A model generated the notes under the pieces. It saw only the letters and a program-made list of their open reading frames with translations, searched no databases and was not told where the DNA came from. The position numbers were made by a program, and so were the translations under genes. From Burkholderia sp. S171 (GTDB lineage Bacteria > Pseudomonadota > Gammaproteobacteria > Burkholderiales > Burkholderiaceae), in contig NZ_LMUF01000048.1 of the NCBI RefSeq assembly GCF_009766085.1, positions 210,246-274,245 of the forward strand: a stretch of DNA of 64,000 nucleotides, written 5' to 3'. This document shows positions 36,445-56,166 of this stretch, piece by piece (position 1 is the stretch's first letter; each line of letters opens with the position of its first letter).

Positions 36445-37028
36445 GGTTTTTTCCTATGCGTCAATGCCGCGAACGCGGGTCTTAACGCCAGCCGCTGGCC
36501 TCCCGGTCTTCCTGCGACAAAACCTCTTCGTTCTTCACCCCACCCGGTTCGATCAAAGCAGACGACCATTGCGGAAAATGAGCGTGATCTCTTTTTTAGT
36601 GCACCCTCTAGCAATAATTGTCCTTACCGCACAAATTTTTATATGAAAATATAACGGGATCAACGAGCGGGCTTGAACGTAAAGCTGCCGATTGATCTGA
36701 CCACCTTCTATGCATACCGGACGGTATCCGCCAAGAAAAAGGTCGGCCCCTTACGAGGGCATTGGATTCACCCGCTACTCAACAAGTGTGCACAAGCGCG
36801 TGCCGGCATCGTACTTTCCGAGCGGCTGGATGCCGTGTGGTCTATTTATCGAGCACGGTGGCAAACGCAATGATTGATGTGGTACTAGCATCTGGCAAGG
36901 CCATTCCGGATGTGATTGCGATGTAATTGCGCATGGTTGACGGTTGAAGTCTCTCGCTCGGGAAAATCCGGTCCAGACCGGATCCGGGGACCAGCCCGGG
37001 CGAGTTCTTGATGTAGAGAGAAAAATAA

Positions 37029-38711
37029 ATGGTTGCAATCGCGAGGCGTCACGTCATCTTGTTGCTGGCTTTTGGCCTGCTCGCTATTTTCAGACCCGAT
37101 GTGGCGAACGCCGGAGGTTGCTGGACCGCACCGTACAGCTGTCATCCAGGCGGCGACATCAACCCATCCACCGCCGCCACTTACGAAGCCAGATATATCG
37201 CCTACGCGGAGTTGGCCTGGCGGGACTTCATCGCGTTGAACTTTCCGGCCGAAACAAGCCCGCAGGGAAAGCCGGAGCCGATTCCAAGCAAGGCGCACGG
37301 ACTGGACTATCACGCCGGGGACTACACCGCCGTCTGGCAAACCTGGCCGGAGGCACGGGACATCTTCTTGCAGGGGGCAGCGGCGCCCGCTGCGTTCGGC
37401 ACGGGTCACCAGACGCCGGCAGACTGTCTCAGGAAAGATGCATCGGGGCGAGTCGAACTCACTGACAAGATCGTGCTCGACGAGTATGTGCAGGCCAACC
37501 AGATGGGACCCGTGATCGATAAGCAGGGGCAGTATGTCAGGTACGGCTTGAGCTTCAACAAACCGATGCTGGACTACATCACGGCTCACCAGCTCTATTC
37601 CACCGAAGGCCAGGCCGCGATGGATGCGAACAACCCGGACCGCGACAAGCAGACGATCCAGTTCCCGGCCGGCCACTATTCCGACAACGACGATCCGGAA
37701 ATGACAGGAGCCATTTTTGTCAAATCGTCCTGGAAGATACTGGACGCTTCGGACAATAAGTCGAGCTTCTACCGGACGCAGGCCTATGTGTACGATCAGG
37801 CCGGCGGCGCATTCGCCGATGAACCCGCGGTAAAGGAGCAGTGCTCGCTGAAACCGATCGGACTTGTCGGCTTTCATATCGTCCACCTGACCAGGTCGGC
37901 GCCGCAATGGGTATGGGCCACATTCGAACATGTCGATAACGGACCCTGGCTCAACGATTTCACCTCTAAGCTCAAGCGTGGCTACACTTTTTTCGATGCT
38001 GCCAAGTGCCCGGCATCAGGTGGCGTGCCGAGCTGCGCGTTCGATACCGTACCGGCTGCGCCGTGGAATCCGCAACGGGCCGGCCAGACGCCGACGCAGC
38101 TTGTGCGCCTGGCTGCCCCGGGCAAGCTCGCGCTGGCCGTCAACGAGCAATACAACAACCGGATCAAGAGGACCTATCCGGATAGCGTCTGGGCTAACTA
38201 TTTCCTGGTCGATGTCCAGTTCCCCACCAACGTAAAGACCACGGGCGAGCAGGGCGCAGCTGTACCGAATCCCGCCTACCCGGACGGCATGCCTGCCACC
38301 TCCTTCCTGTCGAACTCGACCATGGAGACGTATATCCCGGGGTTCTTCCACGGTGAGATCACGCCCAGCGGCAACCCGATTCCCCCGGACGACCAGATGC
38401 AGACCCTGCCGTCAACGGGGGCGGTGATGCCCTTTGTTTCTACAGGGCCTCATACCGTGTCGGGCGGTGCTGATCGTGCGACGTCGAGTTGCGTCAGTTG
38501 CCACGCGGATGCCGCCATGACCACCGGCTCGTCCAGCGACTTCGTCTTTTCGCTGAGCCGAGCGCAAAGTAAAGGCAAGCTCAACCTGAGCACGTTCGGC
38601 ACTCAATCGGGCAGTGGTTCCAGCGCGAGGATACTCACACGGCACGAAGCGTCGTCAGTCGTCGAATACGTGATGGGGACCGGCAAGCCGGAGGAGTCGA
38701 CCGGGAAATAG
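37029..38711 (+). CDS. Secreted monoheme cytochrome-like protein, 560 residues
   Basis: Begins with a Sec signal peptide (HVILLLAFGLLAIFRPDVANA). The mature protein is long, rich in aromatic and charged residues, and has one heme c site, CVSCHAD, at about 488 near the C-terminus. I recognise no other domain; the N-terminal 450 residues look like a separate globular part. It heads a unit with a Tat small subunit and a GMC flavoprotein, so it most likely replaces the triheme cytochrome as electron acceptor. AGAGAGA precedes the start. Confidence 0.75.
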   Translation: MVAIARRHVILLLAFGLLAIFRPDVANAGGCWTAPYSCHPGGDINPSTAATYEARYIAYAELAWRDFIALNFPAETSPQGKPEPIPSKAHGLDYHAGDYTAVWQTWPEARDIFLQGAAAPAAFGTGHQTPADCLRKDASGRVELTDKIVLDEYVQANQMGPVIDKQGQYVRYGLSFNKPMLDYITAHQLYSTEGQAAMDANNPDRDKQTIQFPAGHYSDNDDPEMTGAIFVKSSWKILDASDNKSSFYRTQAYVYDQAGGAFADEPAVKEQCSLKPIGLVGFHIVHLTRSAPQWVWATFEHVDNGPWLNDFTSKLKRGYTFFDAAKCPASGGVPSCAFDTVPAAPWNPQRAGQTPTQLVRLAAPGKLALAVNEQYNNRIKRTYPDSVWANYFLVDVQFPTNVKTTGEQGAAVPNPAYPDGMPATSFLSNSTMETYIPGFFHGEITPSGNPIPPDDQMQTLPSTGAVMPFVSTGPHTVSGGADRATSSCVSCHADAAMTTGSSSDFVFSLSRAQSKGKLNLSTFGTQSGSGSSARILTRHEASSVVEYVMGTGKPEESTGK

Positions 38712-38769
38712 GTCGGGCGGAAATCGCGGGTGAACCTTAAATAACAGCAAGAGTGTCAAGGGACCATGC

Positions 38770-39393
38770 ATGATAAAAATCAGTCGCAGAGACGTATTGA
38801 AAACCGTGGGTACGATCGGTGGCGCGCTGTTGGCGCCGGGGCTGCCGCTCTGGAGTCTTGCCGAGGCGGCGCCGCGCGAGAAGGCGCCCGCAGGCTTCGT
38901 CAATGTGTCATCGGCGCTCCTCGGGATTGACGCGGGCGTTCTGAATCCAGCGATCCGGCCGGATGATATATCGATGGCAGACGTGTTTTATGGCCTCACC
39001 GTGCTGGCCGGACCGCGAAGCATTGCAAACCTGCTCGCCGCCTATGACGTGATGGAGAACCAGCACCTCAGGCCCGATCAAATTGCGCAAGCGTTGCTGG
39101 CCTCCGGGAATGGGCCCAATACCAGCCTGAACGGTGCATTTTCCCGCCTGATCACACTGATGTGGCTATACGGAACCTGGAACGGCCACACCGAGATAAC
39201 GAATATCCCTACGTCGGCAAGCGGGATCGCCGCTGATTACCAAAAGGACTTCGTCATTTCCAGCCGCGCATACAAAAGCGGCTGGATCTGGCGCATCGCC
39301 CAGACGCATCCAATGGGCTTCAGCCAGTTCAGCTTCGGTAGCTGGGCAAGTACCCCGCGGTCGCTCACCGATTACGGAATCACTCTGGCGTAA
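38770..39393 (+). CDS. Tat-exported small subunit of FAD sugar/sorbitol dehydrogenase type
   Basis: A 207-residue protein. A twin-arginine signal (ISRRDVLKTVGTIGGALLAP) is followed by a helical domain resembling the small subunits of FAD-sorbitol and FAD-glucose dehydrogenases (family FAD-SLDH/GDH gamma). The next gene encodes the GMC partner. Sequence similarity to the subunit at 23974 is low, so this complex belongs to another branch. Confidence 0.75.
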   Translation: MIKISRRDVLKTVGTIGGALLAPGLPLWSLAEAAPREKAPAGFVNVSSALLGIDAGVLNPAIRPDDISMADVFYGLTVLAGPRSIANLLAAYDVMENQHLRPDQIAQALLASGNGPNTSLNGAFSRLITLMWLYGTWNGHTEITNIPTSASGIAADYQKDFVISSRAYKSGWIWRIAQTHPMGFSQFSFGSWASTPRSLTDYGITLA

Positions 39394-39427
39394 TCGCGGC
39401 GCCGTCTTTAAACATGGGGAATCGAAG

Positions 39428-41260
39428 ATGCCTGAGTATGACGTGATAATTGTCGGGACCGGTCACGCGGGTGCCTTCATGGCTTACGAACTGGGAAGCA
39501 AGGGAAAGAAGGTGCTGCTGCTCGAGGCGGGTCCTGCCACGCCGCGGCATCGGGAAGACTACATGGAGTCCTTCTATCTTGCCGGATTCAAGTCGCCGGA
39601 ATCGCCGTATCCGCCGGACGCCAATAACAATCAGCCGCGAAAGACGAATGCGCCGCATCCGACGATCCAGCAACTGGTCTTCGGCTGGGACAATCCGGCG
39701 ATTTCCTATCTGACCTACACCCCGGGTTCCCTGCCGTTCGGCAGTACCTATCTGAAGCTTGCGGGCGGTACCGGCAACCACTGGCAGGGCACGACACTGC
39801 GAATGAGCAAAAATGATTTCATGCTGCGGCGGAAATACCAGCATGGACTCGACTGGCCGATCGCGCAGGACGAACTGGATAACCATTACGCAAAGGTCGA
39901 AGCGTTCATGGGCGTTGCCGGCAGCACGGCGGAACAGCTCGCGGCCCGCGACGACATTCCGCCGGACTACCAGTTCCCCATGCCTCCGATCCCGCTGTCA
40001 CTGAGTGACAAGTACATAAAGGCTCGCTTAGATGGCGAACCATTAACCAATGAGGATTACTTTACAAACCAGAAAACGGTTGTCACGAAGACGCCGCAAG
40101 CACGGAATTCCGTGCCTTATGACAATCGCAGGGTATGTCATGGCAACACCAACTGCGTGCCAATTTGTCCGATCCAGGCGAAATACGACGCTGCGTATGC
40201 GTTGGGAAAGGCGCTGGCTACCGGGTCCGTCACCGTCAAGTATAAAACCGTGGTGGACAAGATCACGGTCGGCGAGGACGGAAAAATCAGCGGCCTGCAT
40301 TACCTGACCTACGACGATATTTCAGTGCCGGCCAAGTCGGGACAGACCGGGCAAGGTACCGCTGTCGGCACAGTGTTCGTGCTGGCGGCCAGCGCGATCG
40401 AAAACGCCAGGATTTTGCTGAACTCGCCGTGGAAAACGGACCTGACGGTCGCGAACAGCAGCGACCAGGTTGGCAGGAACCTGATGGACCACGCCACGTA
40501 TCTGGCCTGGGGGCTAATGCCCGTCAACGCACCGGCGTACAGCTATCGCGGCCCGCTTGCAACCAGCGGGATCGAATCGCTGCGTGACGGACCGTTCAGA
40601 AGCACGCGCGCGTCCTGGCGGCTGGAACTCGGCAACGAAGGATGGAACTGGGCGAAAGGCGAGCCGTACGCGATCGGCCCGGATTTCCTGTACGGCACGA
40701 ACCACGGCGGGCTGAACAACGGCGGCCCGAACGGGAGCGCGCAGGTGCTCGGCAACAAGAACCTGCTGAAGACACTGAATGGTTATCTGACACGGCAATT
40801 CAGGATTGCCTTCCTGGTCGAACAGGACGCCGAGCAGACCAACCGCGTGCAATTGTCGCCGACGGAGACCGACAACCTGGGCATCCCGAGGCCGCTCATC
40901 ACGTACAACCTGTCCGACTACACGCGCAAGGGTTTTGTCTCGGCCAAGCTCGCCACCACCGAATTCATGAGCCGGGTAGGCGCGCAGGAATACACCCAAT
41001 TCGATGCCGGCAACGCCAAGCAATTTACCTGCGACGGGGAGTCATTCAACTATTACGGCGCCGGGCACGTGTGCGGGACTCATGTAATGGGTGCGAGCCA
41101 CCAGGCCTCGGTGGTCAACTATCACCAGCAAAGCTGGGACCATTCGAACCTGTATATCGTGGGCTGCGGATCAATGCCTAGTATCAGTTCCCAGAACCCG
41201 ACGCTGACCATGCTCGCGATCACGTCAATGACCGTGGACCATATTCTGACGAGGGTTTGA
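39428..41260 (+). CDS. GMC-family oxidoreductase with cysteine cluster
   Basis: A 610-residue flavoprotein. The FAD motif is DVIIVGTGHAGAFMAYELGS. A cysteine cluster CHGNTNCVPICP lies at about 237-248, at the same position as the iron-sulfur cysteines in the gene at 24708. The C-terminal GMC part has CGTHVMGASH and SSQNPTLTMLAI. It has no export signal of its own, so it is probably carried out by the Tat small subunit encoded just upstream. The substrate is likely an alcohol or sugar. A purine-rich site precedes the start. Confidence 0.88.
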   Translation: MPEYDVIIVGTGHAGAFMAYELGSKGKKVLLLEAGPATPRHREDYMESFYLAGFKSPESPYPPDANNNQPRKTNAPHPTIQQLVFGWDNPAISYLTYTPGSLPFGSTYLKLAGGTGNHWQGTTLRMSKNDFMLRRKYQHGLDWPIAQDELDNHYAKVEAFMGVAGSTAEQLAARDDIPPDYQFPMPPIPLSLSDKYIKARLDGEPLTNEDYFTNQKTVVTKTPQARNSVPYDNRRVCHGNTNCVPICPIQAKYDAAYALGKALATGSVTVKYKTVVDKITVGEDGKISGLHYLTYDDISVPAKSGQTGQGTAVGTVFVLAASAIENARILLNSPWKTDLTVANSSDQVGRNLMDHATYLAWGLMPVNAPAYSYRGPLATSGIESLRDGPFRSTRASWRLELGNEGWNWAKGEPYAIGPDFLYGTNHGGLNNGGPNGSAQVLGNKNLLKTLNGYLTRQFRIAFLVEQDAEQTNRVQLSPTETDNLGIPRPLITYNLSDYTRKGFVSAKLATTEFMSRVGAQEYTQFDAGNAKQFTCDGESFNYYGAGHVCGTHVMGASHQASVVNYHQQSWDHSNLYIVGCGSMPSISSQNPTLTMLAITSMTVDHILTRV

Positions 41261-41295
41261 TGGGGGAGGGAGGTGACTTTCAATTTCCGTGATTG

Positions 41296-41311
41296 CCGGA
41301 TCCAGATCCGG
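41296..41311. other. Short hairpin between GMC and deaminase-like genes
   Basis: A perfect stem CCGGAT / ATCCGG with loop CCAG, 36 bp past the GMC stop. No T-run follows. Possible RNA processing or attenuation site. Confidence 0.35.
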
Positions 41312-41383
41312 ATGGTCATCAGCAGTCATGTCGATTGAGAAATTTGCGTATCCAGAATCACAATTTCCATATGGGTGGTCGAA

Positions 41384-42628
41384 ATGACAAAAGTAACAAC
41401 CGTGGAGCAGGCGATGGAAATCGCCGCGGATCAAACGCTCATCGCCAGTTGTGCGAAGACCTTCTCGGTCGGTGGCCTGCTGGTCGACGACGAGGGTAAG
41501 GTCCTGCACGCGATGCCGAACCAGGTGATCAAGGACGGCTATACCTCCGACCCGACCGCTCATGGAGAGAGGCAACTTACCGACTGGTACTACGCAAATA
41601 GCAAAGGCCTTCCTGAGCCGGGTCAGATCACCGTCGTCACGTCTCTCGATCCGTGCTGCATGTGCACGGGTGCGATCCTGACGGCGGGATTCAAGGTTTT
41701 GACCGCTGCCTATGACACGTATTCCGGCATCAACTACGACACGAAGTCCGACTTCCCTTCGTTGACGCCCGGCATGGCGAAAAGAGCGAAGGAGCGATTC
41801 GGTTATCCCGAGGTCGTTGACGGTGTTTGCTATAACCGCCTGGCGAAGGGGCCGGAGAATAACGTTCCGGCATTCACCGCGAAGACCATCCAGGGCCGTA
41901 CCGTCGCATTGTGCGAAAGCATTTTCCAGGCGACGCTCGCGACCGTGCGTAACCAGATCAACGATGATCTGCCGTTCGATCAACTCGGGGACATCCTGTC
42001 GCTGCCTTCGACGGATCCGATCCGCGTTGCGCTATCCAGCAAGTATGCCCAGGCCCTGCAATACCGGTCGCAGGCGCCGTTCACACCGGACGAGGGGCTG
42101 GTGCCGTACCTGAAGCCCATGATGCAGCATGACATCACCCTGGGCGGCAAGGGACAGGCTGTTGCGCTGCTCGACCACCATGGCAATTTGCTGCTTTGCA
42201 AGTCGGGGGCGGAGTCCATGTCATCGATCCGGACCGCGTTCATGGAAGTGACCCGCACCTATGCCGGATTGCGCCGGCAACTTCAAATGGATGGAATCAA
42301 GGACACGCGGAAATACTTGCCCCATCCGAAGTACTGCACCTTTGTTTTCGCCTTGGGACCGATGCTGGACGACGTACCCCCGGAGCGTCCGGACATCGGC
42401 CCGCTTAGCCAGACGCAAAGCTTCATGGAACTGGGCGCCTACGGCTCGACAATGGAAGGTGCGCTCGATACCGTCAACAACCCGTCGCCCTATCAATACG
42501 TCCGCTCGCGGATGAGCGCCGACACCTTGGCGACCTTCTGCACGAAGATGCCGCCGTTGTATAGCGGGGAGATCAAGGTCAACCCGATTCAGGTGACGAA
42601 CCAGGCATTGATCGATGGGATCGGCTGA
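41384..42628 (+). CDS. Cytidine/guanine-deaminase-fold protein with extended C-terminus
   Basis: A 414-residue protein. Residues about 10-150 form a zinc deaminase domain with the His-Ala-Glu-type motif HGE (60-62) and PCCMC (90-94), the three zinc ligands and the proton-shuttle Glu. Such domains deaminate nucleobases or similar amidines. Residues about 170-414 are unfamiliar; one stretch (VALLDHHGNLLLCKSG followed by a helix) echoes the start of the deaminase fold without its zinc ligands, so it may be a decayed second copy. A GTG at 41375 is an alternative start. It follows the GMC gene and converges on the xanthine-dehydrogenase-like gene. Confidence 0.75.
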   Translation: MTKVTTVEQAMEIAADQTLIASCAKTFSVGGLLVDDEGKVLHAMPNQVIKDGYTSDPTAHGERQLTDWYYANSKGLPEPGQITVVTSLDPCCMCTGAILTAGFKVLTAAYDTYSGINYDTKSDFPSLTPGMAKRAKERFGYPEVVDGVCYNRLAKGPENNVPAFTAKTIQGRTVALCESIFQATLATVRNQINDDLPFDQLGDILSLPSTDPIRVALSSKYAQALQYRSQAPFTPDEGLVPYLKPMMQHDITLGGKGQAVALLDHHGNLLLCKSGAESMSSIRTAFMEVTRTYAGLRRQLQMDGIKDTRKYLPHPKYCTFVFALGPMLDDVPPERPDIGPLSQTQSFMELGAYGSTMEGALDTVNNPSPYQYVRSRMSADTLATFCTKMPPLYSGEIKVNPIQVTNQALIDGIG

Positions 42629-42647
42629 TCCGTTTGAAACCCGCTTG

Positions 42648-42702
42648 AGCGGTACATGACCGGTACATGAGCGGTACATGAGCCGTACATAAGCCGTACA
42701 TG
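42648..42702. repeat. 11-bp tandem repeat, five copies of AGCSGTACATG
   Basis: Five head-to-tail units (AGCGGTACATG with one- or two-base variants) lie between the stops of the deaminase-like and xanthine-dehydrogenase-like genes. Confidence 0.92.
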
Positions 42703-42739
42703 CGCCACGGGCGTTTCCCAACCGGAACCCCGTGGCTTT

Positions 42740-45700
42740 TCACGCATGCAGGACGAACGCTTCTTTCCCCACCTCGCACGCGCGCCGCACCTCCTGTACC
42801 GTTGCCGGCGCATCCAGGAAGAACAGCGGCGTGAGGTTGCGCTCGACGCGCGACGCACGGATCGCCGCCTTGATGGCAAAGAAAACGCTGTTGGCGAGCA
42901 CCATCGGCGGTTCGCCGGCCTCTTTGGACGAGTAGATACCGTGCTCGTCGGTGGTCGGCACACCCGAGACTGAGGGGTCGTTTCGCGGGAACAGGTGCAC
43001 GTTCATCTCCAGCGGAATGGATGCATGCGCGGGGACTTTATAACGCCACGTATTGAGGGTGTTCAGGCGGCCCTTTTCGTCGCCGTCCGGCTCGAACACA
43101 AGCTCTTCGGAAATCAGATAGCCGACGCCTTGCACAAACGCTCCTTCGACCTGGCCGATATCAATGGCCGGATTCATGCTCCATCCCATGTCGTAGGCAA
43201 TATCCGCACTGATGATCTTGACCTCGCCGGTCAGGATATCCACCTCGACGACCGAGCATGCCGCGGAGTAGGTGAAGCCGACGAAACAGTCCACTGTACC
43301 GCCGGGCTGCGCACTTTCGTCAACGTCGATACCCGGTATCCGGGGTTGCTGGTCCAGCGGCTTGAAGGTCTTCCATGGTACGGATTCCTCACCACCGGAT
43401 ACCTGTACCGTGAAACTCGCTACCAGATTCACCCTTGCTACATAGGCGTAGTGAATCAGGTTCTGCCAGATCAATGCGGTTTGCCCGTGTGCGAAGACTT
43501 CTTGCGCCCAGCCGGTTTCTTTGTAATCCCAGTAGTTAATGCCATTGTCCTTGCACCATTGTTCGCCTTTCTCGACTCTCAGCTGCTGCCCAAATTCCCG
43601 GAGACGTTTAGCGAGGTCTGTGCAGACAGCTTTGGCCACTTCGCAGTTGTATTGCGTTCCGGTCGAGGCTCCGGTGCTGGTCGGATTTGGCGTAACACTG
43701 GTCTTCGGGCTTTCAATATGGATCATCTCCATCGGGATGTTGAGCACATAAGCGGCGACTTGCAGGACCTGGGTGATCAGGCCCTGTCCCATCTCCACGC
43801 CGCTCTGATGAATCGTCACCGTTCCGTCCGCTTGATTGACCACCGCGATCCCCGCGGCCTGCTCCAATTGCAGAAGGTTATATCCTGAGCCGTACTTCAC
43901 CGGGATCATCGCGATACCGCGTTTGCGCCATGTGTTGTCGCGGTTGAATTGCTCCACCGCACGCGACTTGTCTTCGAAAGAGCAGGTGGTTTTCAGCCAG
44001 TTCCACACCTGCCTGATATAGCAGCCGTCCAGCACCTGTCCAAACGGAGTCACGTCGCCAGGGTTATAAAAGTTGGCTTCCCTGAGTTGCTCGGACGGTA
44101 TGCCGAGTGCGACAGCGGCATCGTCGATCGCATTCTCGATGATGTTCTTTCCCTGCAGGTCGCCGAATGCACGCATGGCCGTGCTGGGGGCGGTGTTCGT
44201 CCGGCACACGTCGATCTGGCTCTGGTAATTCGGCACTTTATAGACGTTGTCGGCCCGTAGCTGGATGCAGTTTGAAACGATAAACGAACAGTCGTAGTAA
44301 GCACCGCCGTCTCCCCACATCTGGGTCCAGAAGCCCTTGATCTGGAGAGTCGTGCGGTCGACGGCAATCTGGCACTGGCCAAAAAATGCGTGCCGCTTGC
44401 CGATCATCCGGGTATCCACATCTCTTGGCAGTACCACCCGTACCGGACGGTTGAGCCGGTATGCGGCCACAACCGCGGGTCCGGTGACGAATCGCGCCTG
44501 TTCGGTTTTCCCGCCAAAACCGCCGCCAAGCGGTGCGACGCGGATATCCAGCCGATTGTAGGGAACCCCGATCGCCATCGCCGACGTTTGATGCATTTCC
44601 ATCGGGCTCTGCGAGGACGGGTGGACGATAAACCGGCCTTCATCCTGTGGTACGACCAGGCAAGCCTGAGTTTCCATATAAAAATGGATCTGGCCGCCGT
44701 TGCGTTGGCTGTTCGCCAGCCGGATACAGTTGGCAAAGGCCTGATCCGGCACACCGGACAGGTCGGTTAGCTCGATGCTTCGATCAAGCGGTTCACGGCT
44801 CGAATTCATCCAGTCGAACGTGCTGTCCGGTCGCGTGATCTTCCAGATATGCGTCACGTAGTTCGCCGTACTCGGGGCATCCGGGAAAATGCTGTTTCTC
44901 GCGATAGCGTCCTCAATGCTCAGTACCGGTTCGTTCCACTGCGCGGGCCAGCTTCCGTCCCATGTGATCGTTCTATAGCCAATGCAGGAGCGGGTCGCAT
45001 ACTCGGCTATGTCAGTGGCTGCCTGTTCGTCTCGGGCCAGTACCATCGCAATCGTCTGGCCGGGGTAATGAACGCCGCGCTTCGCAAACAGCGGCTGGTC
45101 CAGCGCTTTTCCCTGTAAATTGAGGCCGTGGGGTGGAACACTGTCGCTCGTCAGGACATCGGTGAATTGATTGGGGAACGTTGCGGCGAGATGGGCCTTG
45201 AGCTGTTCGCGCGTGATTTCCGTATCGGCAGAACCCGGCAGGCAAAAATAGAACCCGGCCAATGCACGCAGGCTTTGAACGAAGGCGCCATGCAGGGTCC
45301 TTGGAGGGATCGCCAGCTCGTGCGTATAGTGCATTTCGCCGAGGGCCTGGTAGATAGCCGTATTCTTGATATACGGCAAGCCCACCGGATGGCGGTCGAC
45401 CGGCGGAACGGCGTATGACTGGCGTCCTGAACTGACACCCCAGTTACCCCATGGGATATCGCCTGCCGAGGCTATCGCCGGGCTAACTGGCACGCCCCGG
45501 TGTACCAGCGCGTTGATCAACGCTTTGTAGAACAGGGACAAGGCCAGGGCCACCCGGTAGTCGTCGGAGAAGCCCTCGTCCGGCAGCCTTGCCCGAAACG
45601 ACGCCCATTTCTCAAGCTCTTGCGTGACTTCCCGCTCCAGTATGGTCAGGCTTTCCGTGAGGTCCTCCGTCGTCAGCGGCCGCCCCAGACCACTCAGGAA

Positions 45701-47401: not shown

Positions 47402-47529
47402 ATGAAGCCTTCCGCAGGTATATTTTTAAGCCCTCTTCATGGAAGTGCCGCTTATTTTCGGCATCTGGCTTTATAAATTCGACCGGAGTAAACCGGCTAG
47501 GTGTTCAGGCTCGCTACACGTCTTTGTGT

Positions 47530-48675
47530 TCAGAAGCTTTGAGTCATGCCAATCCGGACATCGACCTGCTTGTTTGTGGTGGACGGGGAGAATGCATAGC
47601 CAATAGCGGCGCGCGTACCCGCATTCGCAAGCAAATAATCCGCACCGGCGTAAACCGAGGTGCGTTTGGAAAACAAATAATTAATGCCGGTCGAAAACCG
47701 GCTCCATCTTGATTCTTCAAACCGCGTACGTTGATAATCGAAAATGCCAAATAGATCAGGTGCGAAATAGTATTGCGTGCCGCCCTGGTAGACTTGCATG
47801 GTCGAACTGGTTCCGTAACCCTTGACGTTAATATTGTTATAAAGAACATTCAACTGAAGCTTACCGATTACATAAAGAGCGCCGGCGCCGAAAACGCCTT
47901 TACTGTCGACCTGCATGCCGCTTGGAAAAAGGTCGGTGGCGACCCCTGTCGCCGGATTGATGGTGGCGACTCTCTGGCCCAAAAACGTTGTTACGCCCAA
48001 CTGCGCGTAAGGATCGAACCCTTGTCTGCCAGTCGGGTTATTGATTTTTGTATAGACAATTGCCGTGCTGAATGCGCTGCGTTTAAAGGCGCCGCCGACG
48101 CTCCAGGCGCTACCTTGATGAAAATTCCCCGCGACATTACCAAATTCATACATCCCGCCAAATCGGGCGCCACCAAAGTTGGCACTCGAAAACTTGACAG
48201 CATTATTGAGGCGATCTGCCCCGGAGTACCCGTCGAAGTCGCCCTGGTGGCTGCTATATCCCGTCCCTTCGGATGCGAGGTTGAATCCACCCAGATTCAG
48301 ATAATCCCATACGAAATCGTATTGATTACCCAAAGTAAATGCGCCCCATTTGCTGTTCAATCCAACAAAAGCCTGTCGCCCGAACAGTGCGCCGTTTTGA
48401 AAGGCTTTCCCGGTTCCCAATGAAAAACCATTTTCAAGAGTGAAGATTGCGCTCAAGCCGCCACCTAAATCTTCGACTCCCTTGAATCCCCACCGGTTAC
48501 CGTACCAGATGCCGTCTTCAAACCGATAGGCACTGCTTCCGGCATAATTCGATACATAGGTTATTCCGGCGTCGAGCCGGCCGTACAGTGTTACGCTACT
48601 TTGTGCCCGTACGAAGAGTGGAACAAGCAATGCGGCTATGGCGCCAAGCATGTGAACCGCTCTTTTATTATACAT
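47530..48675 (-). CDS. Gram-negative porin, likely co-transcribed with the molybdoflavoprotein
   Basis: A 381-residue porin. Signal peptide MLGAIAALLVPLFVRA preceded by MYNKRAVH, then QSSVTLYGRLDAGITYV. Signatures WGFKGVEDLGGGLSAIFTLE and FGRQAFVGLN, with the C-terminal strand RIGMTQSF. It diverges from the other porins in loop sequences. It lies 128 bp before the xanthine-dehydrogenase-like gene on the same strand and is divergent from an ABC importer. A substrate-specific uptake channel for the pathway is therefore likely. Confidence 0.93.
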   Translation of the reverse strand: MYNKRAVHMLGAIAALLVPLFVRAQSSVTLYGRLDAGITYVSNYAGSSAYRFEDGIWYGNRWGFKGVEDLGGGLSAIFTLENGFSLGTGKAFQNGALFGRQAFVGLNSKWGAFTLGNQYDFVWDYLNLGGFNLASEGTGYSSHQGDFDGYSGADRLNNAVKFSSANFGGARFGGMYEFGNVAGNFHQGSAWSVGGAFKRSAFSTAIVYTKINNPTGRQGFDPYAQLGVTTFLGQRVATINPATGVATDLFPSGMQVDSKGVFGAGALYVIGKLQLNVLYNNINVKGYGTSSTMQVYQGGTQYYFAPDLFGIFDYQRTRFEESRWSRFSTGINYLFSKRTSVYAGADYLLANAGTRAAIGYAFSPSTTNKQVDVRIGMTQSF

Positions 48676-48995
48676 ATCTTCCCAGTTTTAAAAAACTAAT
48701 TGATCTTATGGCAATTCGGGCTGCTTGGCGTCCGGGCCAATGGGTCGATGCCGAGATCTTTTGATAAAAAAATTGGTGTTGCAAGTACAAAATTTATGTG
48801 TATGTGCCCACAAAATCAGAACGCCCCAATAGGAAAAAGGCTCTCAAGGGAGTCGGGAGGGGTGGACTAATTTTAGCAACATACCTGGGCAAAATTTGAT
48901 CTTGTGGTGGGCGAGTTTAGATGTTTTCATTGCAGCGAATAGAGCATGTCGCTGTCCGACGACCTGTTTTTCTTACATTTGGGGATGATGTCCTG
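48676..48995. promoter_or_regulatory. Divergent control region between porin and ABC importer
   Basis: A 320-bp AT-rich spacer that must carry promoters for the porin-molybdoflavoprotein unit and the ABC importer unit. The LysR protein at 55249 is the obvious candidate regulator. No clear operator could be fixed by eye. Confidence 0.5.
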
Positions 48996-50027
48996 ATGCA
49001 TTGCCGATTCAGCTTGCCGAGACGAAAGCTTGTACTGGGGTCCCTTGCGACACTCGGCGTTACGGCGACGGGTTCTCTTGCGACAGTCCAGGCTTTGGGC
49101 GCGGAGGATGGGCTTATCAATCTGCAACTTGGTTATATAGCCGGCGCCGATCAAATTGCCGAGGTAACGGCGCGGGCCATGGGGTATTTCAAAGATGAAG
49201 GACTGACGCTGGCGATCCAGCCGGGCGGCCCGAGTGTTGACGGCCTCGCTGTCGTGGCGTCGGGCCGGTTTGAAGTAGGGGAGATATCCTCCAGCCCATC
49301 AATCATGCTGGCAACGTCTCAAGGCATTCCGATCCAGTCTTTCGCGGTGGGTCTTCAGCGGCACCCGTACGGTTACTTTTCTCTCAAGAAGAACCCCGTG
49401 CGTACACCGCAGGACTTCATCGGAAAACGCGTGGGTGTGGCGCCGACCGGCGTGGTCTTGCTACGCCTGTTGCTGGCCAAGAACAAGATCCCGGAAAGCC
49501 AGGTAACGATCGTTCCTATTGGCGGTGACATGTCGCCATTGCTGACCGGGCGAGTGGATGTCGTGACAGGCTGGCTCTCGAACACGTCTTCGCTGAGGGC
49601 GCTGGGCGACGAGCGAGTTGGCCTGACGTTATGGGACGCAGGCGTGCATCTGTATGCGTGGCCGTACTACGCAACCCAATCCACGCTCCAGACCCGTCCG
49701 GATCTTCTCGTGCGGTTCCTGCGGGCGACGGCGCGCGGCTGGCATGTCTGCAGGACGCAGCCGGATCGTGCCATTGACTATCTGATGAAAGATTATCCGC
49801 AGCTGAACCGTGAGGACGAGCGGGCGGCGCTGGCCATCAAGCTGCAGTGCGCGCTGGACGACGAAACGGTCGCGAACGGCTGGGGCACGATGAGCGCCGA
49901 ACGCTGGCAGCAGCAGATCACGCAATTTGACCAGCTGGGTCAGTTTTCCGGTCACGTACCCGCGGTAAACGAAGTCATGACGACGGCCATCCTCGATAAG
50001 ACCCGGTCAGTCCGGATGGCCGTATGA
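48996..50027 (+). CDS. ABC transporter substrate-binding protein (NitT/TauT, NMT1-like)
   Basis: A 343-residue periplasmic binding protein. The N-terminus has a twin-Arg stretch (SLPRRKLVLGSLATLGVTA) that could be a Tat or Sec signal. The body follows the NMT1/THI5 plan: LGYIAGADQIAEVTARAMGY, then FKDEGLTL, then FIGKRVGVAPTG. It would bind a nitrate/sulfonate/pyrimidine-like solute. The frame is open from 48921; ATG 48996 places the signal correctly. The ATPase gene overlaps by 4 bp. Confidence 0.9.
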   Translation: MHCRFSLPRRKLVLGSLATLGVTATGSLATVQALGAEDGLINLQLGYIAGADQIAEVTARAMGYFKDEGLTLAIQPGGPSVDGLAVVASGRFEVGEISSSPSIMLATSQGIPIQSFAVGLQRHPYGYFSLKKNPVRTPQDFIGKRVGVAPTGVVLLRLLLAKNKIPESQVTIVPIGGDMSPLLTGRVDVVTGWLSNTSSLRALGDERVGLTLWDAGVHLYAWPYYATQSTLQTRPDLLVRFLRATARGWHVCRTQPDRAIDYLMKDYPQLNREDERAALAIKLQCALDDETVANGWGTMSAERWQQQITQFDQLGQFSGHVPAVNEVMTTAILDKTRSVRMAV

Positions 50028-50866
50028 ACGCAGAGACCGACATGACCGCAGCCCAATCTCCGGCGCGCGAATTGCGCGGTGCCGGCGCCGGCGACGCGGT
50101 CACCGGACATGCGATCAGTTGCCGCGACATCGTCGTTCGGTTTTTTTCCGAGCGCCGCAGCGTGACGGCCATTTCCGGGCTGTCGCTGGATGTGCGGGAG
50201 GGGGAATTCCTGACGCTGCTCGGTCCTTCCGGCTGCGGCAAGTCGACCTTCCTTCGGGTGGTAGCCGATCTCCTGCCGCCCAGCAGCGGTTCAATCACGG
50301 TTCTCGGCGGCAAGCCTTCGCGCGCCCGTGCCAACGGCGACGTTGCATTTGTCTTCCAGGATGCGGCCTTGATGCCGTGGCGAACCGTGCTGCAGAACAT
50401 CGAGCTACCGCTTGAGATCGCTGGCAAAAGCCCGCGCAAGCATCGTGTCAGAACCATGGAGCTACTGGATCTCGTTGGGCTGAGGGGATCGGAAAACGCC
50501 TACCCGAATGAATTGTCCGGAGGAATGCGGCAGCGGGTTTCCATCGCGCGTGCATTGATAGGCAATCCCAAGGTCTTGCTGATGGACGAGCCTTTCGGCG
50601 CGCTCGACGAGATTGTGCGAGATCGTCTGAACGAAGAGATCCGCAGGATATGGAAGGAAACAAAGCTGACGATCCTGTTCGTGACCCACAGTATTTATGA
50701 GGCGGCTTATCTCGGTGAACGCGTGCTGGTCCTGAGCGCCAATCCCGGACGCGTGCGTGACATCGTCCCCGTTCCGCTGCCCTATGAACGCACGCTCGAA
50801 GCGCGGGAAACGCCCGAGTTCGTGTCGCTTGCCGCCAGGTTGCGCAGAACGCTGGAGACCTGCTGA
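50024..50866 (+). CDS. ABC transporter ATP-binding protein (NitT/TauT family)
   Basis: A 280-residue ATPase. Walker A LLGPSGCGKSTFLRV, Q-loop FVFQDAALMPW, signature LSGGMRQRVSIARALI, Walker B VLLMDEPFGALDE and H-loop VTHSIYEAAYL are all present. FQDAALMPW and the SSTB-type signature are typical of nitrate/taurine importers. It overlaps the binding-protein gene upstream and the permease gene downstream (one base, at 50866). Confidence 0.95.
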   Translation: MNAETDMTAAQSPARELRGAGAGDAVTGHAISCRDIVVRFFSERRSVTAISGLSLDVREGEFLTLLGPSGCGKSTFLRVVADLLPPSSGSITVLGGKPSRARANGDVAFVFQDAALMPWRTVLQNIELPLEIAGKSPRKHRVRTMELLDLVGLRGSENAYPNELSGGMRQRVSIARALIGNPKVLLMDEPFGALDEIVRDRLNEEIRRIWKETKLTILFVTHSIYEAAYLGERVLVLSANPGRVRDIVPVPLPYERTLEARETPEFVSLAARLRRTLETC

Positions 50867-51699
50867 TGGACGTGTATTCGACTCCCATGAATGCGCCGGC
50901 GGCCTCTCTTGCGATCGACGAAGCGCGCTACCTGGCGGAGCAGCGCCGGCTCGCGCTTCAGCGGCGCATGCTGCCTGTGCTTGGCATCGTGGGCCTGCTG
51001 ATCGCGTGGTGGGCCGTTATCGCCGGCTTCAACATCAAGCCCTTTATTGCGCCGTCTCCCTTGCTGGTGATGCAAACCATCATCAACAAAAGCGACATGC
51101 TGCTGCAGAACCTCGGCGTGACTGCACTGGAAGCACTGTTCGGCTTCATCCTCGGAAACCTCGTGGCGATCCTGGTGGCGTCCGTGTTCGTGCACAGCAA
51201 GATTCTCCAGTGGATATTCCTGCCGATCGCGGTCGCGGTCAATGCTATTCCTGTGGTCGCCAAGGCCCCGATCCTGGTGCTGATCATGGGCAACGGCATG
51301 GCGCCGAAAATCACGATCGCAGCGATGGTGTGCTTCTTCCCGACGCTGATCAACACCGTGCGCGGGCTGGAGGCGGTGAATCCGCAGATCATGGATCTGA
51401 TGCGCATCCTGTCGGCAACGCGTATGCAGATCTATTTCAAACTCCGCTTGTTCAGCGCGCTGCCGTACCTGTTTTCCGCGTTGCGGATAGCCGCCTCGAT
51501 GTGCGTGATCGGCGCCATCGTGGGTGAGTGGATCGGGTCGACCCAGGGTATCGGCGCCCAGATCATCCAGGCTACCTACAACTATGACTCGCCGTTGTTA
51601 TATGCGGCCATCGTCATGAGCGCATTGTTATCGGGTCTCTTCTATGTGGTGATCGCGCTGTTGGAAAAGCGGATCGTGAAGTGGTCCGCGTCGCACTGA
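50866..51699 (+). CDS. ABC transporter permease (NitT/TauT family)
   Basis: A 277-residue permease with six hydrophobic segments. The coupling loop reads ALEAVNPQIMDLMRILSATRM, followed by the EAA-type LRLFSALPYLFSALRIAAS and GAIVGEWIGSTQGIGA. Its start overlaps the ATPase stop by one base. Together with the two upstream genes it forms a complete importer. Confidence 0.93.
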   Translation: MDVYSTPMNAPAASLAIDEARYLAEQRRLALQRRMLPVLGIVGLLIAWWAVIAGFNIKPFIAPSPLLVMQTIINKSDMLLQNLGVTALEALFGFILGNLVAILVASVFVHSKILQWIFLPIAVAVNAIPVVAKAPILVLIMGNGMAPKITIAAMVCFFPTLINTVRGLEAVNPQIMDLMRILSATRMQIYFKLRLFSALPYLFSALRIAASMCVIGAIVGEWIGSTQGIGAQIIQATYNYDSPLLYAAIVMSALLSGLFYVVIALLEKRIVKWSASH

Positions 51700-51735
51700 A
51701 ACGGTTGATTCGTTGATACAGGCAGCAAGGAAAAA

Positions 51736-53118
51736 ATGACTTTTAATAATTTTCTGCATGAACCGGCTCGCGACACGAAGATCGTTGCCAAAGCCGACGT
51801 GGTGGTCGTCGGCGGTGGCCCCGCAGGCGTGGCCGCTGCGCTGGCGGCGGCGCGCAATGGTGCGCAGACCATCCTCCTTGAGCGTTACAACCATCTCGGC
51901 GGCCTTGCATCCGGCGGTATGGTGCTGATACTGGACGACATGTGGGACGCGAGCCAACACGAAATTTCAGTGCGGGGCACGTGTCTGCAATTCATTGAGC
52001 GGTTGTCGCATCGAGGCCTGGCTGTCTATCCGGACTCGACCGAGTGGCGGCAGAGCGAAGAGGCTTACCGAAAGTGGGCTCGCTGGGGAACGTTCGATTT
52101 TCATAGCCACCAGAAGCCGCGTCCGGTTTGTTTCGCGGTGGCGTTCGACCCCGATGGCTGGAAACGCGTGTCGCTCGAGCTCGTCAAGGAGACCGGAGTT
52201 CAACTGCGCCTGCATTCGTGGTTTTCCAGCACGATCGTCGAAGACGGGGTGGTCAAAGGAGTGGTGTGTGAGACCAAGAACGGACGTGAAGCCATTCTTG
52301 GAGATGTTGTGATCGACGCCACGGGTGACCTGGATGTCGCCGCGTCGGCAGGGGCTCCCTACATTGGCGGAAGCTACATCATGACGACCGTCTTCCGGAT
52401 CGGCGGCGTGGATACCGACACCGCTGAACGGTTCGAGTTCGAAGACCCGGTGGCCTACGCCGCGCTGGACCGGACAATCAAACAGATGCTGGGCGGCGCA
52501 TGGGCGTACTGGTGGCTCAAGACGCCACTGAAGGGCATCGTCTGGTGCAACTGCCCGCACTTGCCCGGCTATAACGGGATCGAGGTTGAAGACCTGACCC
52601 GGGTGGAGATGCTCGGGCGCGAGATTGTCCACGAAGTGCATGAATTTGCGAAGAAGAACTTCCCGGGTTTCCAGTCGAGCTACGTTGTGGATTTCGCCTC
52701 TCAGACCGGTGTCCGGCAAACGCGGCTGTTGCAGGGCGAGTATGTGATGACAAAGGACGACATCATGAAGCGGGTCCGTTTTCCGGACGCAATCGCGCGC
52801 GGACGTGACTACTACTATCCGTATCGCTCGCTGCTGCCGAAGAAAGTCGACAACCTGCTGATCGCGGGCCGCCATTACTCCTCGACCTCCCAGGCGCAAA
52901 AAATGTCGCGTGAAATCCCGCCGTGCATGGCAATGGGCGAGGCCGCAGGCGTCGCCGCGGTGCAGGCGCTCAACGCGGGCAAGAAGGTTCGCGATATCGA
53001 TGTCGGTCTGCTGCAACGAACCTTGCGCGCACAAGGCGCAGACCCAGGAGACCAGATGAGTCCCAACCCTGACATTCCCGCACTGGCCGCAGGCCTGACA
53101 ATTGGAGTGGCCGCATGA
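51736..53118 (+). CDS. FAD-dependent oxidoreductase (FAD_oxidored family)
   Basis: A 460-residue flavoprotein. The Rossmann motif is DVVVVGGGPAGVAAALAAAR, followed by an acidic residue in LLERYNHLGG. The C-terminal ADP-binding repeat (DNLLIAGRHYSSTSQAQKMS and MAMGEAAGVAAVQ) is typical of the FAD_oxidored/HI0933 group. It is probably an amine, hydroxylated-ring or enoate oxidase; the substrate is unknown. It lies 36 bp after the permease, and the next gene overlaps by 4 bp, so it belongs to the operon. Confidence 0.88.
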   Translation: MTFNNFLHEPARDTKIVAKADVVVVGGGPAGVAAALAAARNGAQTILLERYNHLGGLASGGMVLILDDMWDASQHEISVRGTCLQFIERLSHRGLAVYPDSTEWRQSEEAYRKWARWGTFDFHSHQKPRPVCFAVAFDPDGWKRVSLELVKETGVQLRLHSWFSSTIVEDGVVKGVVCETKNGREAILGDVVIDATGDLDVAASAGAPYIGGSYIMTTVFRIGGVDTDTAERFEFEDPVAYAALDRTIKQMLGGAWAYWWLKTPLKGIVWCNCPHLPGYNGIEVEDLTRVEMLGREIVHEVHEFAKKNFPGFQSSYVVDFASQTGVRQTRLLQGEYVMTKDDIMKRVRFPDAIARGRDYYYPYRSLLPKKVDNLLIAGRHYSSTSQAQKMSREIPPCMAMGEAAGVAAVQALNAGKKVRDIDVGLLQRTLRAQGADPGDQMSPNPDIPALAAGLTIGVAA

Positions 53119-54281
53119 GTTCGGTCCCGTTCAATCAGTCTGCTGTGTCTGACCTCCCGCTGTCGGGAATCAAAGTCGTCGATTTCACGCAAGTGATGAT
53201 GGGCCCCGTGTGCACCCAAATGCTGGCCGACTACGGTGCGGACGTGATCAAGATCGAGCGCCAAGGTGAAGGGGATCTGAGCCGCTCGACATTCCGGCCG
53301 GTTGCGGGTTCGGATAACCCGGTCTTCTGCAGCCTGAACCGCAACAAACGGAGCGCGACGCTCAATTTGCGCGACCCGGCACAGCTGGACGCCGTCAAGA
53401 AGCTCATTGCCGAGGCCGACGTCGTGACCAGTAATTTTCGCGCGGGGGTGATGGAGCGCATGGGCCTGGGCTACGAGGCGTGCAGGAAGCTCAACGAGCG
53501 GATCATCTTTGCGATTGGATCCGGCTTCGGTGAAACGGGACCCTATAGCGCGAAGGGCGGGCAGGATGTCTTGGCGCAGGCAATGTCGGGTGTCATGGCC
53601 CGGCGATCCGACGTGTCGGTGCCGCTGAACATCTATCCGACTACGCTCGCGGACTACTCCGCCGGCATGCATATGGTGCAGGGTATTTTGCTCGCGCTCC
53701 TGCAGCGCGACAGGACCGGGCTCGGCCAGAAAATATCCGTGTCGCTGTATGACTCAATGCTCGCCATCCAGATGCAGGAGGCGGCGATGCTGATGATGGA
53801 GGACTCCGAACTGAATTGGGCCGCAATGCCGTTGTCGTCGGTGTTTCACGCGAAGGATGCAGCGTTCGTGCTCGTGGGTGCGTTCAAGCAGAACCCGTTG
53901 CGCGACATCTGCGATGTGCTCGGAATCAACGACCTCTCGACTGACCCGCTCTACTGCAATCTCGGGCAGCAATTGCTGCACAAGGCTGAACTTCGCAGCA
54001 TCCTGGCCGAGCGATTTCGCACGGAGACATGTGATCACTGGCTTCGCCTGCTGGAAGAAAAGGACTTGCTGTGCGCACCTGTCAAACATCTGCGCGAGGT
54101 GCTCGACGACGAACAGACGCATCACAACCAGATGATTTTGCAAGGGCAAGGAATAGGGCGGGAGTTGAAGCTGATCGGCAGCCCGATCCGGATGTCGGCG
54201 TCACCGGTTGAGCTGCGCCGGCCACCGCCCTCCCTTGGACAGCACACCGCCGAGATATTTGGCGACGACTTCGTCAAATGA
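53115..54281 (+). CDS. CaiB/BaiF family (class III) CoA-transferase
   Basis: A 388-residue protein with the family N-terminus LSGIKVVDFTQVMMGP, then MLADYGADVIKIE and SLNRNKRSATLNL. The catalytic Asp is in ADYSAGMHMVQG. These enzymes move CoA between carboxylic acids, as in formyl-CoA or carnitine metabolism. It would activate an acid produced earlier in the pathway. It is followed after 13 bp by an enoyl-CoA hydratase. Confidence 0.93.
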   Translation: MSSVPFNQSAVSDLPLSGIKVVDFTQVMMGPVCTQMLADYGADVIKIERQGEGDLSRSTFRPVAGSDNPVFCSLNRNKRSATLNLRDPAQLDAVKKLIAEADVVTSNFRAGVMERMGLGYEACRKLNERIIFAIGSGFGETGPYSAKGGQDVLAQAMSGVMARRSDVSVPLNIYPTTLADYSAGMHMVQGILLALLQRDRTGLGQKISVSLYDSMLAIQMQEAAMLMMEDSELNWAAMPLSSVFHAKDAAFVLVGAFKQNPLRDICDVLGINDLSTDPLYCNLGQQLLHKAELRSILAERFRTETCDHWLRLLEEKDLLCAPVKHLREVLDDEQTHHNQMILQGQGIGRELKLIGSPIRMSASPVELRRPPPSLGQHTAEIFGDDFVK

Positions 54282-54294
54282 CAGGTGACATTCA

Positions 54295-55068
54295 ATGGAC
54301 GTAACTCTGGAACTGAACAGCGGTGTCGCATCGGTCACGATTTCGCGGCCCGAGGTGCTTAACGCACTCGATGCCGCCGCGCAGCAGGAATTGGAAGATA
54401 TCTGGCAACGGATCGAACGGGACCCGAACGTCCGCGTGGTTGTGCTGACAGGCGCCGGCGAGCGCGCGTTCTGCAGCGGCGCGGATATAAAAGCTGCGGG
54501 TTCCAGCGGGCTCGATTACTGGGCGCATCCACTGCCAAAAGGTTTCGGCGGATTGCCGCTACGCGATACGTTGAACGTGCCGGTTATCGCGCGCGTCAAT
54601 GGGTATGCGCTCGGCGGCGGACTGGAACTGATGCTCGGCTGCGATATCGCTGTTGCCTGCTACGAAGCTACATTTGCGCTGCCGGAACCGAAAGTGGGCA
54701 GGATGCCGCTCGACGGCGGCATGACGCTTCTCGCGCGTCAGATTCCCTACCGTCATGCGATGGGCATGCTGCTGACCGGACGCCACGTCAAAGCGACCGA
54801 AGCGTTCGAGATGGGACTCATCAACGAGGTCGTGCCGCGCGCGGATCTCGATGCGGCGGTCGAGCGCTGGGTCGGCGAGATATTGTCCTGCGCGCCGTTG
54901 TCGTTGCGCGCCATAAAGGCTTTCGTACGCTCGACGCAGGGACTGTCTCCATCGGCCGCGCAGGGCATGCGCGTGCCTGCGCTGGTCACCGCCCTGGAGT
55001 CAGAGGATGCCCTGGAGGGCGTCCTGGCATTCAAGGAGCATCGCAAGCCCGTCTGGAGGGGGCTCTGA
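54295..55068 (+). CDS. Enoyl-CoA hydratase/isomerase family protein
   Basis: A 257-residue crotonase-fold enzyme. The oxyanion-hole motif AFCSGADIKA and the catalytic Glu region YALGGGLELMLGCDIAVAC are visible, as is the second acidic position in ALPEPKVGRM. It would hydrate or isomerise the enoyl-CoA product of the pathway. It closes the importer-flavoprotein-transferase-hydratase operon; the LysR gene follows 180 bp later. Confidence 0.93.
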   Translation: MDVTLELNSGVASVTISRPEVLNALDAAAQQELEDIWQRIERDPNVRVVVLTGAGERAFCSGADIKAAGSSGLDYWAHPLPKGFGGLPLRDTLNVPVIARVNGYALGGGLELMLGCDIAVACYEATFALPEPKVGRMPLDGGMTLLARQIPYRHAMGMLLTGRHVKATEAFEMGLINEVVPRADLDAAVERWVGEILSCAPLSLRAIKAFVRSTQGLSPSAAQGMRVPALVTALESEDALEGVLAFKEHRKPVWRGL

Positions 55069-55248: not shown

Positions 55249-56166
55249 ATGCATGCCAGCGTTCTTAAATATTTCACTGAAGTTGCCAGATGCGGTTCGA
55301 TGCGCAAGGCGGCGCAACATTTATTCGTTGCCCCAAGCGCTATCAACCGGCAGATACGGAACCTCGAAGATGAACTGGCAGTCGAGCTGTTCGACCGCCT
55401 GCCGAGCGGGCTGAAACTGACGCCCGCCGGCGAACGTTTGCTCAAGCATATCCGCGAAACGCTAGATGGTTTTCATGCGATGCGCGCGGAGTTCGACGCC
55501 ATGAAAGGCGAGCGGACCGGCCATATTTCCGTGATTGCAATGGATTCGGCCATGGAGAAACTATTGCCGGCGGTTATCGACGATTTTGGCGAGTCGTTTC
55601 CCGCCGTGACCTACGCGATCCAGTACGCATCGTTGTCCAAGGTAGCGGAGCGGGTGGCGTCGGGACAATTCGACATAGGTATCAGCTTTTGCCAGAAGGC
55701 GCCTGCCGGAACCCGGATCGCCGCCACCGCGACTTTCGCCAGCGGCGCTGTACTGTCGGCTTCTCATCCGCTGGCAAAGAAAGACATCGTGACGTTCGAG
55801 GAATGTCGTGAATATCCCATTTTTCAAACAGGTGTCGCCGATGAACTGCCGAGCCCGTTGTCGCTCGAGTACTCCCGCCACTGGGAGGAAACAAAGGTCC
55901 ATATGCAGTCCAACTCCATCCGTGTGATCAAGTCCATGGTGGTTCGCGGGCGTGGGGTCGGGTTTTTTACGAAGCTGGGTTTTATCGACGAAATTGATCG
56001 GGACGAGGTCGTGTGGCGACCCATTGCAGGGGTGTCGGACAACACGCCGCCTGTGGCAATCCTGGTTCCCAGCCCGAAGGAACTGTCGCCAATCTGCGAG
56101 GAATTTTTAAGCTGTCTCATCCGTTTTTTCAAGCAATTCGAGGCTATGACAGAAAGCGGTCATTAA
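55249..56166 (+). CDS. LysR-family transcriptional regulator
   Basis: A 305-residue LTTR. N-terminal HTH (residues 1-60): CGSMRKAAQHLFVAPSAINR, then LEDELAVELFDRLPSGLKLT. The C-terminal ligand domain shows SGQFDIGISFCQKAPAG and VVRGRGVGFFTKLGFI. It is downstream of and in the same direction as the importer-CoA operon, so it is the most likely regulator of this pathway. Confidence 0.92.
   Translation: MHASVLKYFTEVARCGSMRKAAQHLFVAPSAINRQIRNLEDELAVELFDRLPSGLKLTPAGERLLKHIRETLDGFHAMRAEFDAMKGERTGHISVIAMDSAMEKLLPAVIDDFGESFPAVTYAIQYASLSKVAERVASGQFDIGISFCQKAPAGTRIAATATFASGAVLSASHPLAKKDIVTFEECREYPIFQTGVADELPSPLSLEYSRHWEETKVHMQSNSIRVIKSMVVRGRGVGFFTKLGFIDEIDRDEVVWRPIAGVSDNTPPVAILVPSPKELSPICEEFLSCLIRFFKQFEAMTESGH

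Follow-up and report, generated by a model that had tools for sequence, protein, structure and literature searches.

Organization of the gene block

The 64,000-nucleotide stretch of Burkholderia sp. S171 DNA analyzed here (the window; contig NZ_LMUF01000048.1, positions 210,246 to 274,245) contains a block of genes encoding a monoheme cytochrome, a GMC flavoprotein with its twin-arginine (Tat) small subunit, a zinc deaminase, a 1553-residue molybdenum hydroxylase, a porin, and an importer with its associated coenzyme A (CoA) enzymes (Table 1). The genome is 8.49 Mb in length, the nearest relatives of the window are Caballeronia records, and the stretch belongs to a soil Caballeronia genome. 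The block is arranged in three directional groups. The first (37029–42628) is transcribed rightwards and contains the cytochrome, Tat subunit, GMC and deaminase genes with successive gaps of 58, 34 and 114 bp; the second (48675–42740) is transcribed leftwards and contains the porin gene followed by that of the 1553-residue enzyme; and the third (48921–56166), again rightwards, contains the importer, flavin adenine dinucleotide (FAD) oxidoreductase, CaiB, hydratase and LysR genes. We refer to the cytochrome, Tat subunit and GMC genes as Module A, the molybdenum enzyme gene as Module B, and the third group as Module C. All of the genes named in an initial annotation of this DNA are open frames at or near the positions it gave, but the LysR gene lies beyond its right boundary at 55068.

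Table 1. Features of the gene block, in window coordinates; Pfam assignments score above the curated cut-off.
Feature	Module	Coordinates	Strand	Basis and remarks
Monoheme c-type cytochrome, exported, 560 residues	A	37029..38711	+	Signal-like N-terminus; one CxxCH; no Pfam or NCBIfam match
Tat-signal small (hitchhiker-type) subunit	A	38770..39393	+	TIGR01409 above, PF12318 below cut-off; beside GMC in four other loci
GMC flavoprotein	A	39428..41260	+	Pfam GMC; 3Fe-4S cysteines C237, C243, C247; FAD-linking His position H118
Zinc deaminase, 417 residues, extra C-terminal domain, GTG start		41375..42628	+	Pfam deaminase fold; 114 bp downstream of GMC
Single-chain molybdenum hydroxylase, 1553 residues	B	42740..47401	-	Pfam 2Fe-2S, FAD and molybdenum domains
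Porin_4		47530..48675	-	Pfam; 128 bp upstream of molybdenum enzyme gene, same strand; divergent from importer
Divergent intergenic region porin/importer, 245 bp		48676..48920	.	Conserved in four Caballeronia species compared
NMT1-type substrate-binding protein	C	48921..50027	+	Pfam NMT1
ABC ATPase	C	50024..50866	+	Sequence and position, without Pfam scan; conserved order
ABC permease	C	50866..51699	+	Sequence and position, without Pfam scan; conserved order
FAD_oxidored flavoprotein	C	51736..53118	+	Pfam
CaiB family III CoA-transferase	C	53115..54281	+	Pfam CoA_transf_3
Enoyl-CoA hydratase/isomerase family	C	54295..55068	+	Pfam ECH_1
LysR regulator	C	55249..56166	+	Many LysR models matched; same place in 11 further congeners

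Promoter-like and terminator-like sites occur at chance level (7 against 7.6 expected, and 19 against 18.1 expected, respectively), and the window contains no tRNA genes. Among the matches listed in searches of open-licence papers, none was on this gene set, on the cytochrome family, or on this kind of bacterial single-chain enzyme.

Distribution of the block and of its modules

First, the whole block is present in the same order in five genomes (199 relatives searched), the window's own and four others (G002, G008, G024 and G030, in the last of which it is spread over two contigs). By name, these four are C. udeis, C. sordidicola, C. mineralivorans PML1(12) and Caballeronia sp. SEWSISQ10-4, and because matched segments among the carriers are ∼77–99% identical we regard them as one clade and the joining as one event. 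The order is more than a chance arrangement, as it recurs in these four species besides the window's own genome. At E≤1e-100, and with no more than two candidates scored in each genome, the 1553-residue enzyme was found among the 199 relatives in these five genomes, and full-length deaminases of at least 87% identity occur in the same five genomes. A full-length deaminase copy at 39% identity also occurs in G140, a sixth genome of the order, where the 20 kb read contained none of the other genes. The cytochrome (L041:5611–7310) and the 1553-residue enzyme (L041:11350–16003) of C. udeis each match as two segments in different frames, and these two genes look broken, or the draft assembly has errors.

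Secondly, the importer and CoA-enzyme genes of the initial annotation form a real unit, with the same gene order in 16 genomes, five with the whole block and 11 without it. Matches to the FAD oxidoreductase at E≤1e-60 occur in 17 of 121 relatives, namely the five block carriers, 11 congeners (69–72% identity), and one distant genome (40%) in which the Module C set was not found. All 11 of these congeners have the binding protein, ATPase, permease, FAD oxidoreductase, CaiB, hydratase and LysR genes in order, with a divergent porin gene, and none has a match to the cytochrome, Tat subunit, GMC, deaminase or 1553-residue enzyme at E≤1e-6 in the 13.7–16 kb read. Nor are any of the 11 among the genomes matched by the full-length deaminase or the 1553-residue enzyme, and their whole genomes contain no cytochrome match at E≤0.001 (0 of 11), using a query that did match the window's own genome and 11 others. 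Five of the 11 encode a GMC protein elsewhere at 37–41% identity, similar to the second GMC of the window's own genome (39%). Genes of Modules A and B are absent from three further stretches (L185–L187), which have a porin together with single ABC ATPase or CaiB-family matches.

There are differences within this unit between the two groups of genomes. The porins of the 11 congeners are 43–45% identical to another window porin, compared to 34–37% for the porin at 47530, and the latter is therefore not clearly the same gene. The window has three further porin-like genes (3085–4230, 9719–10984 and 19212–20420), each of which is nearer to the congener porins than is the porin at 47530. The binding proteins (52–57% identity) and LysR proteins (46–48%, with one at 57% over half its length) are more divergent between the groups than CaiB and the FAD enzyme are, which may reflect a change in the ligand of Module C.

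Thirdly, both Module A and the deaminase are found apart from the rest of the block. The cytochrome, Tat subunit and GMC genes occur as a set in Azospirillum ramasamyi, Bradyrhizobium quebecense, and genomes G379 and G348, and the four stretches read contain no match to the deaminase, 1553-residue enzyme, binding protein or permease. Deaminase loci were taken from 80 of 155 relatives, and in 76 of these the flank read lacks the cytochrome, Tat subunit, GMC, 1553-residue enzyme and FAD/CaiB/hydratase genes (the flank is short on at least one side in eight loci: L039, L055, L064, L068, L095, L099, L113 and L114). The deaminase gene is preceded by genes of nucleoside salvage in 67 of the 79 loci used for the neighbor count (L068 being left out).

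Gene order, module boundaries and cofactor motifs are direct observations. Because Module C occurs without Modules A and B in all 11 further congeners, the cytochrome-Tat-GMC set and the deaminase each occur without the others, the GMC motif residues align with those of a characterized glucose dehydrogenase, and the molybdenum enzyme has lost two purine-site positions in a genome with two canonical XdhB genes (see below), we conclude that the stretch probably consists of three modules that have histories of their own and were brought together in this clade. Some observations weigh against this conclusion. In the five genomes of the clade the modules all lie together with an unchanged gene order, which a shared function would also explain; the gaps between GMC and deaminase and between porin and molybdenum enzyme genes are short, so that transcripts may cross the module borders; and a fold prediction for the cytochrome from four close orthologues failed, with a mean predicted local distance difference test (pLDDT) score of 27.5.

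The initial annotation had all of these genes acting on a single compound, and named gene-neighborhood co-occurrence as a check; that comparison, as run here, finds them joined in one clade and separate in other genomes. Joint degradation of one nitrogen-containing compound by the porin, importer, GMC, deaminase, molybdenum enzyme and CoA enzymes would account for the joining in five genomes, and also for the divergence of the binding protein and LysR regulator beyond that of the enzymes, as if the ligand had changed. However, with the modules found apart outside the clade and the deaminase family associated with nucleoside salvage, we regard it as unlikely, and we found nothing to indicate that the product of one module is the substrate of another. 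This negative result is instructive, in that genes resembling one pathway in a single genome separate under comparison.

Predicted activities of Modules B and C and the deaminase

The single-chain molybdoflavoprotein of the initial annotation is genuine, with seven Pfam domains above cut-off that place 2Fe-2S, FAD and molybdenum domains on one chain, and it matches mammalian xanthine dehydrogenase (XDH) in four segments along its length. The positions of rat XDH Glu802 and Arg880, which we take to be the residues that bind purine, are occupied by T966 and C1045, and the plasmid-encoded enzyme of Methylobacterium indicum (1419 residues, 42% identity) likewise has Thr and Cys at both positions. 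The score of the 1553-residue enzyme against the NCBIfam xanthine_xdhB equivalog is 452.3 bits, compared to a cut-off of 849.5, and two XdhB genes elsewhere in the window's own genome score above the NCBIfam cut-off. Because of the Thr and Cys residues and the two canonical XdhB genes, its substrate is likely to be something other than xanthine, and Module B would be a cytoplasmic single-chain hydroxylase oxidizing such a compound. A search of 398 genomes of the phylum at E≤1e-150 (no more than two candidates being scored in each) matched the window's own genome only. With its lost purine pocket, this is an assayable enzyme without a named family.

The deaminase and Module B could alternatively form a purine route, in which guanine or adenine is converted to xanthine or hypoxanthine and then to urate. 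The deaminase fold lies near those of guanosine and guanine deaminases, the 1553-residue enzyme is related to XDH throughout, and the two genes are convergent neighbors, but we have rejected this as the best reading and consider it improbable, because the Thr and Cys substitutions are retained at 42% identity and the genome has two canonical XdhB genes; moreover, the deaminase and 1553-residue enzyme genes adjoin in 4 of the 80 deaminase loci, all of them Caballeronia.

The 417-residue deaminase belongs to the zinc-dependent cytidine/nucleobase deaminase superfamily by both fold and motif, with PF00383 above cut-off and the HxE and PCxxC residues (H63, E65, P93, C94 and C97) invariant in 40 of 40 sequences. 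The fold matches listed by Foldseek and VIA cover mainly the N-terminal domain, sequence similarity to guanosine, cytosine and tRNA deaminases is weak (E 0.0012 at best), and there is no NCBIfam match. The order of helices and strands does no more than hint at a tandem-deaminase origin, as profile comparison of the two halves gave no significant similarity (probability 2.1%). The protein may be a cytoplasmic zinc hydrolase acting on a nucleoside or nucleobase, and as a member of deo-type operons without a named family it too is assayable.

Several relatives of the deaminase differ in their context or form. The Sinorhizobium sp. C101, M103 and K101 plasmids have a 41% identical relative, which in C101 (L022:15001–16193) is split in two frames and has none of the other window genes beside it, and that of Listeria grandensis (L064:2119–3465) has a signal-peptide-like start, unlike the proteobacterial ones seen. 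In Sphingomonas sp. CFBP 8760 (L052:11293–15775) a split molybdenum hydroxylase is convergent with the deaminase gene, its smaller part containing 2Fe-2S-type motifs and then a stretch that is ferritin-like by eye; this hydroxylase is only remotely similar to the 1553-residue enzyme (91 residues, E 3.5e-4), and the arrangement may be due to chance.

As with the other modules, the chemistry of Module C is one that we infer. It would import an organic acid, which the FAD enzyme probably desaturates; CaiB could then move CoA onto the acid and the hydratase add water, with the LysR protein as the putative regulator. The FAD_oxidored flavoprotein has no PDB relative at E≤1e-5, and the regulator falls below the equivalog cut-off of every LysR model that it matches. 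The binding protein (48921–50027) has a twin-arginine-like motif, seen by eye, after ∼30 residues.

Module A, its cytochrome family, and known systems

The best PDB match of the GMC protein is the Burkholderia cepacia FAD-glucose dehydrogenase (BcGDH), with C237, C243, C247 and H118 aligning with BcGDH Cys212, Cys218, Cys222 and His105; in the available parts of the BcGDH report these are the 3Fe-4S ligands and the histidine joined to FAD, respectively (PMC6719666). The small subunit has a Tat signal (TIGR01409, 24.5 bits; cut-off 16.7) and scores 20.5 bits against PF12318, below its cut-off of 24.2. The GMC protein would thus carry FAD and a 3Fe-4S cluster and leave the cytoplasm with its Tat-signal partner, and Module A would act as a periplasmic dehydrogenase of a sugar- or alcohol-like compound, passing electrons through the 3Fe-4S cluster to a monoheme cytochrome of its own, where a triheme subunit would be usual. 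The Bradyrhizobium quebecense set is located on a conjugative plasmid (L119:1–19341) among genes for CHAT, patatin, phospholipase D-like, peptidase M4 and metallo-beta-lactamase (MBL)-fold proteins.

Relatives of the cytochrome were sampled from 12 of the 21 plasmid records with a relative and from 8 of 11 other genomes (in nine stretches), and 20 members were aligned, leaving out stretches L124 and L127. Each of the 20 contains a single CxxCH, located near the C-terminus (at residue 488 in the window protein), and 11 further positions are identical throughout (K232, G281, H283, W296, F299, E300, N304, R360, Y391, N429 and E433). Members are seen in alpha-, beta- and gammaproteobacteria and in cyanobacteria. 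When nine relatives were scanned against Pfam (E≤0.1) eight had no match and one had a weak match to Cytochrome_C7 (E 0.036); a PDB search with the window protein gave a single match, at E 0.072. The word "cytochrome" is absent from the available part of PMC4417212. The family is possibly an undescribed one.

The neighbors of these 20 members include redox enzymes of several types. GMC and Tat subunit genes are present in five (window included), LodA/GoxA in two (Xanthomonas and Pseudoalteromonas), a ∼580-residue family without a Pfam match in three, one of which (Paracoccus) also has a tyrosinase, a ∼465-residue family in two, one of which (Methylobacterium) also has a single-chain molybdenum enzyme, and a facing-strand ferritin-like protein and SagB in one each. 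No recognized redox enzyme adjoins the cytochrome gene in Gloeothece citriformis, Vibrio lentus, G434, G384, G325 and G288, among the part of the neighbors that was scanned. These counts describe a sample of matches with no random-gene baseline, and so do not constitute an enrichment. The ∼580-residue proteins, which come from Paracoccus, G232 and G438, form a single family, and their comparison with LodA was negative. The ∼465-residue proteins common to the Methylobacterium (L117:7425–8816) and G348 (L162:9709–11109) loci lack Pfam matches and are 45% identical. In G325 a few genes separate the cytochrome from a second family member (L165:13141–14391), and two proteins of 602 and 814 residues that are related to each other are encoded close by.

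The neighbors are suggestive of an electron-partner role, and we tentatively propose that the family may be a common electron outlet for GMC, single-chain molybdenum, cysteine tryptophylquinone (CTQ)-type LodA/GoxA and tyrosinase-type enzymes, with the window GMC complex as a variant in which the triheme subunit has been replaced. If so, the family would allow the link between respiration and the flavin, molybdenum and quinone oxidases to be followed at the level of genes, and would offer a one-heme substitute for the triheme subunit of the enzymes used in glucose sensors. It is very improbable that Modules A and B work as a single redox unit in which the cytochrome is the outlet of both enzymes; the cytochrome relative of Methylobacterium indicum is the next gene, 104 bp downstream of the single-chain molybdenum enzyme, but this is a single outside example, the window genes are on opposite strands with others between them, and the cytochrome has a visible export signal whereas the molybdenum enzyme does not.

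Several parts of the assembly have a known counterpart from which they depart. The 1553-residue enzyme resembles eukaryotic-type XDH and aldehyde oxidase in the order of its 2Fe-2S, FAD and molybdenum domains along a single chain, but is bacterial, has 1553 residues, and carries Thr and Cys in place of Glu802 and Arg880. The CaiB protein is a family III CoA-transferase like the CaiB-type formyl-CoA and succinate-hydroxymethylglutarate CoA-transferases, although it scores below every NCBIfam equivalog cut-off. The N-terminal domain of the deaminase has the fold of TadA, guanosine deaminase and yeast cytosine deaminase, and differs from these in having an extra C-terminal domain of ∼200 residues.

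Module A most closely parallels the BcGDH complex (PDB 6a2u and 8hdd), with a GMC catalytic subunit, a Tat-type small subunit and a cytochrome partner gene. However, the BcGDH beta subunit has three hemes (PMC6719666, in the available parts) and the window has instead a one-heme, 560-residue protein of a family without a Pfam match. The window GMC protein is also longer (610 residues, compared to 539–545), and has His at the position of Cys213, which in BcGDH forms a disulfide to the small subunit; the disulfide cysteines are not conserved within the group (PMC6719666, same parts). The window's own genome encodes a separate second GMC set with a neighboring protein containing three CxxCH motifs (L184), which is presumably a canonical complex. 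The GMC oxidoreductase of Collimonas pratensis PMB3(1), which has Tat small and cytochrome subunits, the same three components as in the window, produces gluconic acid from glucose and drives the weathering of minerals, according to the available parts of PMC12542777; reference 52 therein, judging from its title, describes a GMC oxidoreductase with this role in C. mineralivorans PML1(12). That strain carries the present block (L038). The likelier counterpart of the weathering enzymes is the second set of the window's own genome, with its three-CxxCH protein, rather than the window GMC.

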